Assembly (NCBI GenBank): GCA_025358925.1
Contig: JANYHT010000039.1
Location: 186,001-250,000 of the forward strand
Source of the DNA: Gemmatimonadaceae bacterium
GTDB lineage: Bacteria > Gemmatimonadota > Gemmatimonadetes > Gemmatimonadales > Gemmatimonadaceae
Direction: 5' to 3'
DNA length: 64,000 nt
Positions 9,162 through 15,218 of this stretch are shown here, in pieces; position 1 is the first letter of the stretch, and each line of letters begins with the position of its first letter. Position numbers and translations under genes: made by a program. The notes below the pieces were generated by a model, which was not told where the DNA came from, made no database searches, and worked only from the letters and a program-made list of their open reading frames with translations.

Positions 9162-9851
9162 ATGGAACGCAAGCGTACCTTTGTGAAGTATTTCACAAGC
9201 CAACGCCCCGTGAAACGCATAGCCGACTCTACCGTCCGTCGCCTCTCGATGTACCTCCGCTACTTGGAGGATCTCGACGCTGGAGGCCAACACACTGCTT
9301 CGAGTGACGAACTCGCGCATTTGTGCGGCACTACGCCGGCACAAGTTCGCAAAGACCTGTCGTTCTTCGGCTCCTTTGGGAAACGCGGTCTCGGATATCC
9401 GGTGCACGAACTCACGTCGCACCTGCGCGAGATCCTCGGCCTCGAACGCGAATGGAAGGTCGTTATCGTCGGCGCGGGCAAAATTGGTGCGGCGCTCGCC
9501 AACTACCGCGGATTTCGCCAACGCGGATTCAAAGTGATTGGTGTCTATGACAATAGCACGGAAAAAATCGGGCAGCCTTGGGGTGAAGCAATCGTGCGCG
9601 ACATCGTCGACCTCGAACGCGATGTCCGTGCCGAAGAAGCGTTGATTGCGGTACTCGCAATTCCGTCGGATGACGCGCAGAGTGTGGTGGATCGACTGGT
9701 TGAAGCGGGCATACGCGCGATCCTTAATTTTGCACCAGCGCAAATCACCGTGCCGTCGCACGTCTCGCTCAAGTCCGTAAACATGGCAATGGAACTCGAA
9801 GGATTGTCGTTTGCGCTGACCAATACGATGACGAGCAAAGGAGCCGCTTAG
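9162..9851 (+). CDS. rex: Redox-sensing transcriptional repressor Rex
   Basis: NADH/NAD+-responsive repressor of fermentative and respiratory genes. A winged helix with SSDELAHLCGTTPAQVRKD (47-65) and SFFGSFGKRGLGY is followed by a Rossmann domain with VIVGAGKIGAAL (101-112) and FAPAQITVP near the end. The frame begins at ATG 9162 (229 residues). Aligning the family start (KIPxATxxRL) to KRIADSTVRRL suggests the true start may be GTG at 9210. A perfect Rex operator lies between the two, at 9181-9198. Neither start has a clear Shine-Dalgarno. It is convergent with rsmA and divergent from the exonuclease. Confidence 0.95.
   Translation: MERKRTFVKYFTSQRPVKRIADSTVRRLSMYLRYLEDLDAGGQHTASSDELAHLCGTTPAQVRKDLSFFGSFGKRGLGYPVHELTSHLREILGLEREWKVVIVGAGKIGAALANYRGFRQRGFKVIGVYDNSTEKIGQPWGEAIVRDIVDLERDVRAEEALIAVLAIPSDDAQSVVDRLVEAGIRAILNFAPAQITVPSHVSLKSVNMAMELEGLSFALTNTMTSKGAA
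9181..9198. promoter_or_regulatory. Rex operator at the start of rex
   Basis: TTGTGAAGTATTTCACAA is an exact match to the Rex-box pattern TTGTGA-N6-TCACAA with perfect 6-base arms. It lies just 12 bases before the GTG at 9210, which fits negative autoregulation of rex. If the ATG at 9162 were used, the box would be within codons 7-13. Confidence 0.85.
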
Positions 9852-9871: not shown

Positions 9872-10660
9872 CTACGCGTTCAACGCACCCACCAAACGGG
9901 CAAAGTCTTCCGGAGAGAGCACTTCCGGACGCGCATCTGGTCGCAATCCACATCGCTCGATAATTTCGCCGGCCGCCACAGGGTCGAGTGCCGTGACCGT
10001 TCGCACCACGCGGATAAGTTGCTTGCGTCGCAAGCCAAACGCCGCTTGCACAAAGCGACCGAATCGCTGCTCAAGCATCTCATTGACGACGGGGTCCGCG
10101 CGCGGTGTCACGCGCACGATCGCCGAGTCAACCGTTGGCGGCGGATTGAACGCGCCCGGCGGTACGCGTTTCACGACCTCGACCCGTGCGACGGCCTGCA
10201 CGTTTACACTGAGCGCGCCGTAAATTTTGTCGCCGGGCGGAGCCGCCATGCGATCCGCCACCTCTTTCTGCACGAGATAGATGGCAACGTCAGCGCGCGG
10301 ACGTTGGAGCGCATGAAAGAGTATCGGTGTCGTGATGTAGTACGGGACGTTGCCCGCCAGCACGAACGGGCCGCCCGCCGCGTCAGCCAGCGACGTTTCT
10401 AATACATCGCCTTCGATAATGGTGACGTGCGGACGATCGATGTAGCGTTGTCGCAGGTGTGCCGCGAGATCGCGATCTAGCTCAATCGCTACCACGCGCG
10501 CAGCGCGCTCCACCAGTCGATCGGTGAGCGCTCCGCGACCTGGTCCGATTTCCACGACCGTCTTGGTGCCAAGCGGTCCGAGGGCATCGACAATCGTATC
10601 TAATACACGCGTGTCGTGCAGGAAGTGTTGACCAAATCGTTTACGCGGAATCGGCAGCAT
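9872..10660 (-). CDS. rsmA: 16S rRNA A1518/A1519 dimethyltransferase RsmA (KsgA)
   Basis: Dimethylates two adjacent adenines in helix 45 of 16S rRNA late in 30S assembly. The N-terminal RKRFGQHFLHD, SAM motif I VEIGPGRGALTDRL, VVAIELDRDL, and the catalytic NVPYYITTPIL (NxPY) are all present. The ATG at 10660 is chosen because AAGGAG lies 6 bases upstream and the next gene ends at 10690; the longer frame start at 10696 would run into that gene. 262 residues, usual size. Last gene of a minus-strand operon, 20 bases from the convergent rex. Confidence 0.96.
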   Translation of the reverse strand: MLPIPRKRFGQHFLHDTRVLDTIVDALGPLGTKTVVEIGPGRGALTDRLVERAARVVAIELDRDLAAHLRQRYIDRPHVTIIEGDVLETSLADAAGGPFVLAGNVPYYITTPILFHALQRPRADVAIYLVQKEVADRMAAPPGDKIYGALSVNVQAVARVEVVKRVPPGAFNPPPTVDSAIVRVTPRADPVVNEMLEQRFGRFVQAAFGLRRKQLIRVVRTVTALDPVAAGEIIERCGLRPDARPEVLSPEDFARLVGALNA

Positions 10661-10689: not shown

Positions 10690-12345
10690 TTACCATGGCC
10701 GATCCACCACCACTACGGCTTGATCATCGCGCAGCGGTGTTTCACCGGCATGCGCAGTCACGACCGCAAACATCTCAGTCAATATTACTTCGGGCGATTC
10801 GGCATGCGACATCCGTGACAACGCGCGCACCATCGCCGCTTCACCCAGTCGCCGATCGCGCTCATCGAGCGCGTCAACGAGCCCGTCCGTGAATAACACA
10901 AGGCGATCGCCTTGTCGCCATGCCATCACACACTCGTCGATGGGTGCGTTGCTAAACCCGATGGGTGGCGCAACCGCCGATAGTCGCTCACACACGCCGT
11001 CAGCGCCCAATCGAAAGGCATGCGGATGTCCGGCGTTCGCGAACCGCAGCTCACCAACCCGCGAATCGATCACCGCATAACACAATGACAACGACATTTC
11101 GGTGGACGCGAGTTCGTCCGCAAGTGAACGCTGCACGGCTTCCAAAGCGATGGACGGGTCGAACGCCGCCTGCACGTGAATCGCGGCCGCGCTTAACGCG
11201 AGCGCCATCACCAATGCGGCTTGAAAACCATGTCCTGAGACGTCGCCGATCAAGACACCCGTGCGATCTCGATCAAGGCGCGCCAGCAGAAAAAAATCGC
11301 CACCGACACTTTCCGCCGACACAACGCGCGCTGCAGCTCGGGCCTCTGGCTCGACGACGGACGGCTTCGGGAGCAGCTTGAGCTGGAGCTCGTGAGCCAC
11401 GCGCATTTCGCGGACAAGCTGTTGTCGCTCGACCGCCGCTCGCACCAGCGACGCGTTGTGCATGGCCACACCAATCTGCATGCCGACGGCCATTGCGAGC
11501 TTGCGATCCCCCGCCGTAAATGGCGCACCGTGCGCGCGTCCCCCCAAGACTAACACGCCTGATGGTGCAGCACCGACGCTCTCAAAATGTGGTGTGCCGA
11601 CGCGACGTGATGAGACCACGGGAAACTGTCCGGTGACGTTCATGCCGGTACTTGGCCGCGAAATAGCCACGGCCAACAGTGGACCCCCGTCTTCGGCGAT
11701 CAACGGATCAGCGAGGCGCGATGAAACACCGTCCTCCGTGCACGCACCACCTGCGCGCCAAGCGCGAACCGCGATGTGCGACGCATCGTCCAGCGCGATC
11801 GACGCGTACTCGCGATCGCGTAAGCCCATCGTCGCCACGGGAGCGAGCGTCATCGGTACACGTCGCGTGAGCAAGAACACCGCGCGTGTTGCGCCGACGG
11901 TTGTGGCGAGTTCATGCAGCAGGGTGTCGGCAACGTCTTCCACCGCAGCGGCGCCACCGAGCAGTTCTCCAATCGCGTAGAGCAGATTGATTTCTTGGTA
12001 ACGCTCGACCGACTCGCGCGCAGCGCCATCTCGTTCACGGGCAAGTCGCCAAACGAACGGTACCAACCGACCGAGCAATCGATTGCCCTCTGACGTTATG
12101 GCTGGTTCAGCGAACAACCAGCCTGCGCTATCGCCAGTGTTGACGAGCTGCGCGCTTAGTCCACGCTGGCGTGCCCACGCGTTGACGTCCCACGCCAACG
12201 CACCCGTCTCCGTGAGCGCCGCGAACGCGATTGACGAGGCGCCGAGTAGCGACAGCGCAACCGTGCCGTCTCGACGTTCCCATATCGCCGCCTCTCGCCC
12301 GGTGGCCTCGTGGAACGCGGCCATCAGGGTGGCGACCTCCATCAT
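10690..12345 (-). CDS. RsbU/SpoIIE-type PP2C phosphatase with GAF domain
   Basis: About 551 residues. The N-terminal 120 residues are not recognised. A GAF-like sensor (about 125-295) contains INLLYAIGELLGGAAAVED. A linker helix with VREMRVAHELQLKLLPKP leads into a PP2C phosphatase with VGGDFF, VLIGDVSGHG, ANAGHPHAF, LFTDGL and the terminal DDQAVVVV metal motif. Such enzymes dephosphorylate a STAS-domain antagonist to free a sigma factor or other output. The ATG at 12345 overlaps the kinase stop (ATGA). Upstream lie the kinase and the STAS protein, so the set is a complete partner switch; the signal sensed by the GAF domain is unknown. Confidence 0.92.
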   Translation of the reverse strand: MMEVATLMAAFHEATGREAAIWERRDGTVALSLLGASSIAFAALTETGALAWDVNAWARQRGLSAQLVNTGDSAGWLFAEPAITSEGNRLLGRLVPFVWRLARERDGAARESVERYQEINLLYAIGELLGGAAAVEDVADTLLHELATTVGATRAVFLLTRRVPMTLAPVATMGLRDREYASIALDDASHIAVRAWRAGGACTEDGVSSRLADPLIAEDGGPLLAVAISRPSTGMNVTGQFPVVSSRRVGTPHFESVGAAPSGVLVLGGRAHGAPFTAGDRKLAMAVGMQIGVAMHNASLVRAAVERQQLVREMRVAHELQLKLLPKPSVVEPEARAAARVVSAESVGGDFFLLARLDRDRTGVLIGDVSGHGFQAALVMALALSAAAIHVQAAFDPSIALEAVQRSLADELASTEMSLSLCYAVIDSRVGELRFANAGHPHAFRLGADGVCERLSAVAPPIGFSNAPIDECVMAWRQGDRLVLFTDGLVDALDERDRRLGEAAMVRALSRMSHAESPEVILTEMFAVVTAHAGETPLRDDQAVVVVDRPW

Positions 12346-12809
12346 GCTCGGCGCAGTCTGAGCTGAACGGTATGGCCCTGCGTGGCGCCTTCGCAACGAC
12401 TTTCCACGTGATCCATCAGCGCACGCATCAGAAAAATGCCGCGCCCGTCTTCACGTTCCAGCCAATCTGCGTCAGCGGGCGAATGTTGCACCGCATCTGC
12501 GTCAAACCCATCCCCTTCGTCAGTGACGTCAAGCACGAGGGACTCTGCTTCGATCGCTGCACACACGCGCACGGCGCGCGTTCGATCACCGCGATTGCCA
12601 CAAATGATGGCATTCGAGAGCGCTTCAGTGAGCGCGACGGGCACATTGAGTCGACAGAGGCGCGATGAAAACCCTGCAGCGACGCACAGTTGCGTCACCG
12701 CCTCGACAACCGCACCGATCTCTGCGACGTCGGACGCGATAGTCCACGTGTGCTGTTGGATTGGGAGCGGTATGGCGAGCGTCGGTTGGCGAGAACGACG
12801 CATGGCCAT
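12342..12809 (-). CDS. RsbW-type anti-sigma serine kinase (HATPase)
   Basis: GHKL ATPase kinase of about 155 residues. The N-box ALTEALSNAIICGN, G1 box DEGDGFD and G2 box GRGIFLMRALMD are all intact. Kinases of this type phosphorylate a STAS protein and, in the unphosphorylated switch state, hold a sigma factor. The frame opens at 12869, but the preceding STAS gene ends at 12814, so I take ATG at 12809 (12803 also possible; no good Shine-Dalgarno). No sigma factor is adjacent, so the client is unknown. Confidence 0.88.
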   Translation of the reverse strand: MAMRRSRQPTLAIPLPIQQHTWTIASDVAEIGAVVEAVTQLCVAAGFSSRLCRLNVPVALTEALSNAIICGNRGDRTRAVRVCAAIEAESLVLDVTDEGDGFDADAVQHSPADADWLEREDGRGIFLMRALMDHVESRCEGATQGHTVQLRLRRA

Positions 12810-12813
12810 GGGC

Positions 12814-13146
12814 TTAGCGCGAAGCGACAGCATCAGCGCGCGTCGCAAACAACGGAAACAATGCATCAAGCCGGGTCAACTCAAACAGCGTTCGCAAATC
12901 GTCATTGAGACCCGCCAAGCGCAAATCGCCACCCAGTTCACGCAAGCGTTTACCGAGCGACACGAGTGCACCCAATCCGGAGCTATCGATGTACGGCGAC
13001 GCGGCGAAGTCCACGATTACCAGACGCGCGCCTCGTTCGACCTCGTCAAGCACTGCCTGTTTAAACTCATGCCGATTCGTTACCACCAGCTGACCGTTAA
13101 CTTCGACAAGCAACGTCTCGTTGTCGCGCGCAAGAATGAAACTCAT
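12814..13146 (-). CDS. STAS-domain anti-sigma factor antagonist
   Basis: 110 residues. The STAS fold has VDFAASPYIDSSGLGALVSL, with the conserved phosphoacceptor serine at about residue 55 in DSSG. The start ATG at 13146 lies 7 bases after the pta stop and the stop is 4 bases before the kinase start. It should be the RsbV-like partner: phosphorylated by the kinase at 12342-12809, dephosphorylated by the phosphatase at 10690-12345. A longer frame to 13422 overlaps pta and is discarded. Confidence 0.9.
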   Translation of the reverse strand: MSFILARDNETLLVEVNGQLVVTNRHEFKQAVLDEVERGARLVIVDFAASPYIDSSGLGALVSLGKRLRELGGDLRLAGLNDDLRTLFELTRLDALFPLFATRADAVASR

Positions 13147-13153
13147 AGGTCGC

Positions 13154-14185
13154 TCAGCTGGAGGCACCGGACGCGAGGGAGATTCCCGGCGTCCCCACTT
13201 GGAGTGCCGTAATCGCCGCAACATGCACAATGTCGTCCGTTGTAGCGCCTCGGGACAAGTCACTGCACGGCTTCGCGAGTCCTTGTACAATTGGTCCGAT
13301 GGCGGTCGCGCCCGCCAATCGTTGCACCAGCTTGTATGCGATGTTGCCTGCGTCGAGCGACGGAAAAACGAGAACGTTCGCGCGACCAGCGACCGCTTCG
13401 CCAAACGCTTTGCGGCGTGCAATGTCGGGCACTAATGCCGCGTCGGCCTGCAACTCGCCCACCGCGTGTAGCTCCGGTGCCTCAGCACGAACCATCGCCA
13501 ATGCTTCGCGCACGCGACTCACTGATGGGCCATCCGCACTTCCCATCGTGCTGTACGACAAGAACGCAACGCGGGGTTCATCACCAACAATGCGACGACG
13601 ATCTGCCGCAGCAGCTAATGCGATATCAGCAAGTTGTCGCGCGGTGGGATCAGGGACGACCGCGCAATCGGTGAACGTGAGCACCTCGCCCTCCCCGCTG
13701 CGAAACGACGGCACGATCATATAAAACGCGGACGACACGGTGCGAACCCCGTGCGCCGCACCGACCGTCCAGATAGCGGCTCGCAACACGTCCGCCGTGG
13801 TGTGCGATGCACCGGCAACGCATCCGTCGGCCTCACCGAGCGCGACCAACGCGTCAGCGAAGTACAACGGATCGCGCGCAAGTCGTTCGGCTTCACTCCG
13901 CACAAGCCCTCGATCGCCTCGACGCGACAACAAGTGCTCGACTACGCGCGGTGTAAGTGTGTCCGTCAGCGGATCGAGAATCTCTGAGCGCCCGGCTGGT
14001 ACGACGCCGGTTGCTGCGTCGCTGCGGCGCACGAGGACCGGAATTACTGAGCCGCGTCGTCCGAGTGCGATCACCGCTTCTACAGTGCGAACGTCTGTTG
14101 CTTCGGGAAATAAAATTCGACGCGGTCTTTCCGCCGCGCGCCGGTGCACGGAATCCAAGAACGCAGACGCGGCAGCAAGCGACAT
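13154..14185 (-). CDS. pta: Phosphate acetyltransferase
   Basis: Interconverts acetyl-CoA and acetyl phosphate. 343 residues, the short single-domain form. Signatures: [15 protein letters not shown] at the N-terminus, [34 protein letters not shown], and the C-terminal [18 protein letters not shown]. Phosphate butyryltransferases are related, but the last motif favours Pta. No acetate kinase gene is visible in the window. It is followed directly by the STAS gene, linking acetyl-phosphate metabolism and partner switching by position. Confidence 0.93.
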
Positions 14186-14190
14186 GACGG

Positions 14191-14694
14191 TTAGCGTGCG
14201 AAGCGTTCGGCGAGCTTGCGCGCAATCAGCGGATGCACCAGGTCGGACACGTTGCCCCCGAATCGCGCCACTTCGCGCACCATACTGGAGCTGATGTACG
14301 TCGTATCAAGCGACGGAGCCATGAAGATCGTTTCGAGATCGGGTAACAAATGTCGATTCATCAACGCCATTTGGAATTCGTACTCGAAATCGCTCACTGC
14401 CCGCAAACCGCGCACCGTGATACGCGCGCCCGTTTCTTTGGCGAGGTCGACAAGCAATCCGGAGAAGGCGCGCACTTCAACGTGCAGGCTGTCGCTCGTA
14501 ATTTCCCGGATGAACTGCACACGTTCCTCGATCGTGAAGAGCGGCTGCTTACTGACGTTGACCGCCACCGCAACGACCAGATGATCCGTAAAAGCGGCCG
14601 TGCGTTTGATGAGATCCTCATGCCCGTGTGTGATCGGGTCGAACGAACCGGCGTAGATGGCAATTCGAGCGTTGGGACTCGACGGTGACGGCAT
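14191..14694 (-). CDS. coaD: Phosphopantetheine adenylyltransferase
   Basis: Penultimate step of coenzyme A synthesis. 167 residues. [16 protein letters not shown] carries the nucleotidyltransferase T/HxGH motif; [18 protein letters not shown] and the [10 protein letters not shown] (ISSTxxR-like) motif complete the active site. The ATG at 14694 shares a base with the rsmD stop (TGATG). A TTG one codon earlier is possible but less likely. It sits 5 bases before pta, placing CoA supply beside acetyl-CoA use. Confidence 0.97.
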
Positions 14695-15218
14695 CAATTG
14701 GAGGTCGCGCGATAAAAGGTGAGAGCGTTCGCACCGTAGCGGCGCGTTTCCCCAGGAGCCGGCATCGCCACGTCGGCCGAGTGTTCAATACCGAACACGT
14801 GTGCGAACGGAACCGTCAACCATTGCGCCACCAAGACGCTCCCCGTCTCCGCCAAGTACGGCGGATCTGCAAACGCAACATCATAGGCACCGGCGGCGAG
14901 CGTCGTCGCAAAGTCCAGCGCGTCCGCACGATGAATTACCGCGCCATCATGACCGCCAAGGGCATCGAGATTTGCCTGAATGGCCAGCAGTGATCGCGGC
15001 GCGCGTTCGACGAAATCGCACGACGCCGCACCGCGTGAGAGCGCTTCAAGTCCGAGCGCGCCACTGCCAGCGCAAAGATCAAGCACTCGCGCCTCCGGTA
15101 AGAGATGATGCACGATGCTCATCCACGATTCACGTACACGATCACCGGTGGGTCGCACCGAATCTCCGTCGGGCGCGTCGATGCGACGACCTCGCCAACG
15201 CCCCGCAATAATACGCAT
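14694..15218 (-). CDS. rsmD: 16S rRNA G966 N2-methyltransferase RsmD
   Basis: 174 residues. MRIIAGRWRGRRI at the N-terminus, PTGDRVRESWM, SAM motif VLDLCAGSGALGLEALSRGA and the catalytic ADPPY are characteristic. It follows recJ by 4 bases and is coupled to coaD, the usual rsmD-coaD pair of many bacteria. Confidence 0.96.
   Translation of the reverse strand: MRIIAGRWRGRRIDAPDGDSVRPTGDRVRESWMSIVHHLLPEARVLDLCAGSGALGLEALSRGAASCDFVERAPRSLLAIQANLDALGGHDGAVIHRADALDFATTLAAGAYDVAFADPPYLAETGSVLVAQWLTVPFAHVFGIEHSADVAMPAPGETRRYGANALTFYRATSN

Follow-up and report, generated by a model that had tools for sequence, protein, structure and literature searches.

We found that the window (the whole stretch of 64,000 nucleotides that was analysed, from a Gemmatimonadaceae bacterium) appears to carry a known kind of regulatory switch in a new, fixed setting. 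A STAS protein, an RsbW-like kinase and a PP2C phosphatase form a predicted partner-switching module whose place in the coaD-rsmA operon is kept across the class, and the STAS protein is likely to be its output. Several lineages have dropped the kinase and the phosphatase and kept STAS, which argues that STAS, not a stress sigma factor, probably delivers the signal. The genes concerned are the following.

9162-9851: rex
9872-10660, minus strand: rsmA, 16S rRNA dimethyladenosine transferase (RrnaAD, 208.5 bits), the fixed downstream neighbour of the switch; start at 10660 or 10696
10690-12345, minus strand: PP2C (SpoIIE/RsbU-type) phosphatase gene, 551 aa, with an N-terminal region and a GAF-like domain
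12342-12809, minus strand: RsbW/SpoIIAB-like serine kinase gene, about 155 aa; start uncertain, ATG at 12809 or 12833
12814-13146, minus strand: STAS protein gene, 110 aa, with Ser55 (DSSG) as the predicted phosphosite; its product is proposed to be the switch output
13154-14185, minus strand: pta, phosphate acetyltransferase (PTA_PTB, 341.2 bits; NF007233, 330.4 against a cutoff of 310)
14191-14697, minus strand: coaD, fixed in the class as the neighbour upstream of the switch

On the minus strand these genes are tightly packed in the order recJ, rsmD, coaD, pta, STAS, kinase, PP2C, rsmA. Seven bases (13153-13147) separate the stop codon of pta from the ATG of STAS, four bases lie between STAS and the kinase when 12809 is taken as the kinase start, and the stop codon of the kinase overlaps the start of the phosphatase (ATGA). 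The sequence-only reading had described a STAS gene seven bases after pta, followed by a kinase and a GAF-PP2C phosphatase with intact motifs up to rsmA, and no sigma factor next to them; this description agrees with the domain scores and motifs given below, the GAF label being the weaker part, and none of the listed Sigma70_r3 and SigBFG matches of this genome lies in the window. The closest named record for the phosphatase is from a Gemmatimonadaceae MAG (92% identical). A contig deposited as Candidatus Kuenenia stuttgartiensis (CALQGY020000198.1, locus L032), probably mis-binned or mislabelled, encodes a phosphatase 72% identical to that of the window.

All three proteins score well above the curated cutoffs of their domain families: 75.5 bits (cutoff 22.6) for STAS (PF01740), 78.8 bits (cutoff 27.4) for HATPase_c_2 (PF13581) in the kinase and 134.8 bits (cutoff 25) for SpoIIE/PP2C (PF07228) in the phosphatase. 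The STAS protein also passes TIGR00377, anti-sigma factor antagonist (61.9 versus a cutoff of 53.45). The motifs comprise DSSG with Ser55 in STAS; EALSNA, DEGDG and GRG as the N, G1 and G2 boxes of the kinase; and the aspartates of GGDF, GDVSGHG, TDG and DD in PP2C. These residues, the functionally important ones in these families, hardly vary across the class. The STAS phosphosite is Ser in 138 of 139 sequences and Thr in one; E, N, D and GRG of the kinase are invariant (131/131); and the PP2C aspartates are kept in 129/129 sequences for GGD and GDV and in 127/129 for TDG and the final Asp of DD, two sequences having a gap at these sites. By its domains and intact catalytic motifs, the set thus qualifies as a predicted partner-switching module. 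The phosphatase may, in addition, have an N-terminal GAF-like domain. Its GAF_3 match (24.3 bits) is under the Pfam cutoff of 27, and the structure model of this part, with Foldseek matches that include tandem-GAF structures, has moderate confidence (mean pLDDT 63.8), so that this label is weaker than those of the other domains.

The RsbV/RsbW/RsbU and SpoIIAA/SpoIIAB/SpoIIE systems of Bacillus are built from these three domain families, with matching catalytic motifs. The closest solved structures to the window kinase are RsbW and SpoIIAB, and those to the STAS protein also come from these systems. However, the window proteins are far under the equivalog-level cutoffs (spore_II_AA 41.6 versus 114.75, spIIAB 41.1 versus 135, RsbW 37.3 versus 145, spore_II_E 38.4 versus 490.8), and the genome is without SigB/F/G. 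Foldseek matches of the phosphatase model are the Rv1364c, SiaA, SpoIIE and RssB phosphatases, together with tandem GAFs. Rv1364c of Mycobacterium tuberculosis (3ke6), which matches the PP2C best in both sequence and fold, combines an RsbU and an RsbW domain in a single chain, whereas the genes of the window are separate, and fused loci of the class have the order kinase, then PP2C. RssB and SiaA of Pseudomonas share the PP2C catalytic domain; they differ in their sensor parts, and the window PP2C reaches 41.7 and 28 bits, respectively, against cutoffs of 700 each.

We studied conservation of the locus in 150 genomes of the phylum, 145 of them of the same class, using one locus from each of 143 class genomes; the class total also includes the window, whose switch is complete, and G080, in which no rsmA was found. 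Loci L114-L117 of family f9, which is outside the class, and L172-L174 (extra loci of G003, G001 and G096) were dropped from the class counts. Query matches were found in 144 of the 150 genomes for STAS, 133 for the kinase, 142 for the PTA_PTB protein and 138 for the phosphatase, the weakest of the latter being probably paralogues. Among the 143 class loci, 114 have the complete switch as separate genes, 15 have a fused kinase-PP2C, eight are reduced (seven with STAS alone and one with STAS plus kinase) and four have no switch; the remaining two (G054 and G052) stop at contig ends and were not scored as losses. The order coaD-pta-STAS-kinase-PP2C-rsmA was found in 107 of the 143 loci (four of them with a degraded Pta) and the same order minus pta in 14 more, and such an arrangement is, judging from these counts, far beyond chance. 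The order is present in every sampled family of the class, bar a family represented by one genome, in which STAS alone is left. Outside the class, the f9 genomes have related sets elsewhere in the genome in the order PP2C-kinase-STAS (PP2C 28-31% identical), and the switch is absent from the rsmA loci of the two f9 genomes checked; on these comparisons, the order is a trait of the class and not of the phylum. Within the class, an order confined to one strain is excluded by these data; the conservation across the phylum that had been put forward as a check extends, in this sample, as far as the class.

In up to 40 sampled complete loci, mean pairwise identity is 0.693 for STAS, 0.462 for the kinase, 0.496 for PP2C and 0.626 for coaD, and STAS ranks first in conservation among ten operon genes, a ranking that applies within the operon. 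The STAS match of G138 (L069) holds one in-frame TGA, which reflects either an error in sequencing or a changed end of the protein. Downstream, rex and rsmA face opposite ways in each of the 46 loci scored in the family of the window, and share one direction in each of the 76 scored in the other families; the gene orientations are indicative of a small inversion specific to the family of the window.

Kinase and PP2C are encoded in one open frame, kinase domain first, in 15 of the 143 loci, from two families, and it is therefore suggested that the pair behaves as one control unit. Most of these loci are without most of the GAF part, which G066 retains. On a FastTree tree of five concatenated neighbours, where the count of changes does not tell gains from losses, the fused state corresponds to four changes; fused and separate forms are mixed within one clade, and the fusion has at least two origins. 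In genus g51 (L111-L113, L159-L162), the fused protein is extended at its N terminus by a part that looks receiver-like by eye; Pfam gave no receiver match for L111, the one that was scanned. One further candidate fusion, CoaD-Pta-STAS in one open frame of G035 (L080), was rejected as an assembly artefact, the joints being runs of X (N) and poly-G.

Losses at the locus are one-sided. STAS is found without kinase or PP2C in seven of the 143 class loci (G084, G102, G130, G109, G120, G096 and G137), corresponding to at least five changes on the tree, whereas a kinase without STAS was found in none of the 143; complete absence of the switch corresponds to three changes. In six of the seven genomes (all but G137), no kinase match at 1e-5 and no PP2C match at 1e-3 was detected genome-wide, and HATPase_c_2 matches are confined to frames of at least 289 aa, that is, not to a free-standing small kinase, with the caveat that these MAGs are 89-95% complete and genes can be missed. 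In G137, a PP2C-like fragment and unrelated sequence lie between STAS and rsmA, and another RsbW-like kinase is located on another contig; this gene content is that of a recent break of the switch. Because the genes for kinase and PP2C are adjacent, a single deletion could remove both together; if a deletion of two neighbours were equally likely to take STAS plus kinase, we infer that STAS would be spared five times by chance with a probability of about 1/32.

The STAS frame is open in all seven of these loci. For the pair G084/G102, dN/dS of STAS is 0.089 (Fisher p 5e-11), compared to 0.089 for coaD, 0.091 for rsmA and 0.063 for rex; for G109/G120 the ratio is 0.28 (Fisher p 8e-7), a weaker purifying selection than in the first pair. 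By these substitution ratios, the kinase-less STAS is under purifying selection. Of 33 near-invariant STAS residues, 30-32 are kept in G084, G102 and G130, 19 in G109 and 21 in G120. Once kinase and PP2C are gone, STAS evolves more quickly than in relatives with a complete switch; this holds for four of the five lineages compared, G137 being the exception, and part of the conservation of STAS is therefore owed to its kinase and PP2C partners. STAS is strongly altered in G109, G120 and G096, and these genes could be slowly decaying relics. The coaD-rsmA interval of G096 (L168) holds a lone, divergent STAS gene with a Thr phosphosite (DTPG); G096 belongs to a long-branched family. The view that we favour from the pattern of losses and substitutions is that STAS has a use that outlasts the kinase and the phosphatase.

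We consider it fairly probable, with considerable room for doubt, that the locus encodes a reversible serine-phosphorylation switch acting on a single STAS protein, with STAS, acting on a target distinct from the kinase, as the output, and the kinase and phosphatase as a removable control layer. The direction of the switch is inferred from the protein families: the RsbW-like kinase would phosphorylate Ser55 of STAS, and the GAF-bearing PP2C, driven by a cytoplasmic signal, would strip the phosphate. Unphosphorylated STAS would then act on its presumed target and deliver the output, as argued for SypA and RbaV. The STAS protein SypA of Vibrio fischeri is described as an output (PMC8256260), SypE is a dual serine kinase/phosphatase of the same species (PMC3610818), and for RbaV/RbaW/RbaY of Rhodobacter capsulatus, which has no identified sigma client, the determinant of output preferred by the authors is RbaV (PMC3999984). 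The resemblance to the Rba system lies in a STAS protein, an RsbW-like kinase and a PP2C phosphatase with a sigma client not identified; the difference is that the Rba system has no known coaD-rsmA operon link, whereas the place in Gemmatimonadota is fixed in the class, with fusions and STAS-only lineages. The 15 fused class loci resemble SypE in having kinase and PP2C in one chain, but SypE has a central receiver domain, the kinase and PP2C of the window are separate, and there is no syp-like locus here. In a limited literature search, no publication dealing with partner switching in Gemmatimonadota came up. Since the losses single out STAS, the kinase may be the wrong bait for a pull-down.

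The main alternative is a canonical anti-sigma switch with a distant client, in which the kinase would hold a group 1, group 2 or FliA-like sigma factor and unphosphorylated STAS would free it. The kinase resembles SpoIIAB and RsbW, and the genome of the window has four larger sigma-70 factors that could serve, three RpoD/RpoS-like and one FliA-like, the latter named from resemblance and a flagellar neighbour; moreover, PMC6482189 reports orphan partner switches in Pseudomonas that have RpoS or FlgM as their targets. However, no SigB/F/G sigma factor over the cutoff was found in any of the 150 phylum genomes (the best SigBFG match in the genome of the window reaches 122.9 bits versus a cutoff of 234.35), and no sigma match lies in the window. 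In the six genomes mentioned above, STAS outlasts any RsbW-like kinase, although a protein that served solely as an anti-anti-sigma factor would have no need to persist there. Numbers of sigma factors fail to separate genomes with the switch from the few without it. An anti-sigma role with a client of another sigma group is possible, albeit doubtful in our estimation.

A more specific version of the STAS-output model is that STAS is an effector on an operon-linked target, in CoA/acetyl-CoA metabolism or 16S rRNA maturation, with the kinase-phosphatase pair as a removable dimmer and a Pta-fold protein as a possible non-enzymatic partner; we regard this version as speculative and rather unlikely. 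The adjacency of rsmA by itself would allow that the switch may be linked to ribosome maturation. With respect to the pta position, a pta-like gene adjoins STAS in 120 of the 143 class loci (five of them degraded) and is absent from 22, with 11 changes on the tree; G097, counted among the 22, and G085, left uncounted, have no contig upstream of STAS. The degraded Pta-like gene lies between coaD and STAS in G131, G108, G036, G119 and G040 (L088, L090, L093, L164 and L165, respectively), all with a complete switch, and neither Pta (PF01515 at E 1e-8) nor AckA was detected in these five genomes. It keeps 12-23 of 59 residues that are invariant in other Pta, two of the five being partial or split in the alignment, and direct PF01515 scans give 27.9 bits for G131 and 41.6 bits for G036. 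This gene is under purifying selection in all four pairs tested, which were drawn from G036, G040, G108 and G131 (dN/dS 0.23-0.27, Fisher p < 1e-13). Because these five genomes retain it at the pta position, there may be a non-enzymatic link through the Pta fold. A partner of this kind, if real, would account for the retention, in one lineage and exactly at this place, of a Pta relative that lacks the conserved catalytic-type residues.

It is improbable that the operon position means shared expression only and that STAS-only genes are relics awaiting deletion. The neighbours recJ, rsmD, coaD and rsmA are indeed unrelated housekeeping genes, pta comes and goes, and STAS identity falls in kinase-less lineages; but dN/dS of the kinase-less STAS is well below 1 and its frames are open, whereas the first half of this explanation, a position without meaning, is compatible with STAS as the output.

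Least likely of all, and hardly credible as a general rule, is a role of the switch, by way of Pta, in reporting or controlling the acetyl-CoA/acetyl-phosphate state, as the sequence-only reading had suggested from the gene order: in spite of the frequent adjacency and the short intergenic gaps within one operon, 14 complete switches have no pta at the locus, four loci have pta without the switch, 16 of the 20 genomes searched for AckA are without it (several of these with Pta), and the five complete-switch genomes have neither enzyme, therefore Pta-made acetyl phosphate cannot be the general signal. By its distribution among the loci, pta is a frequent but dispensable neighbour of the switch.

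Returning to STAS as the probable output, the locus bears on the wider question of what lone STAS output proteins, SypA and RbaV among them, bind. The locus described here lets the same STAS gene be compared with regulators that are separate, fused, half-lost or fully lost, and the six genomes of 1.8-2.7 Mb with STAS, in which no RsbW-like kinase was found, would make the search for a target narrower.
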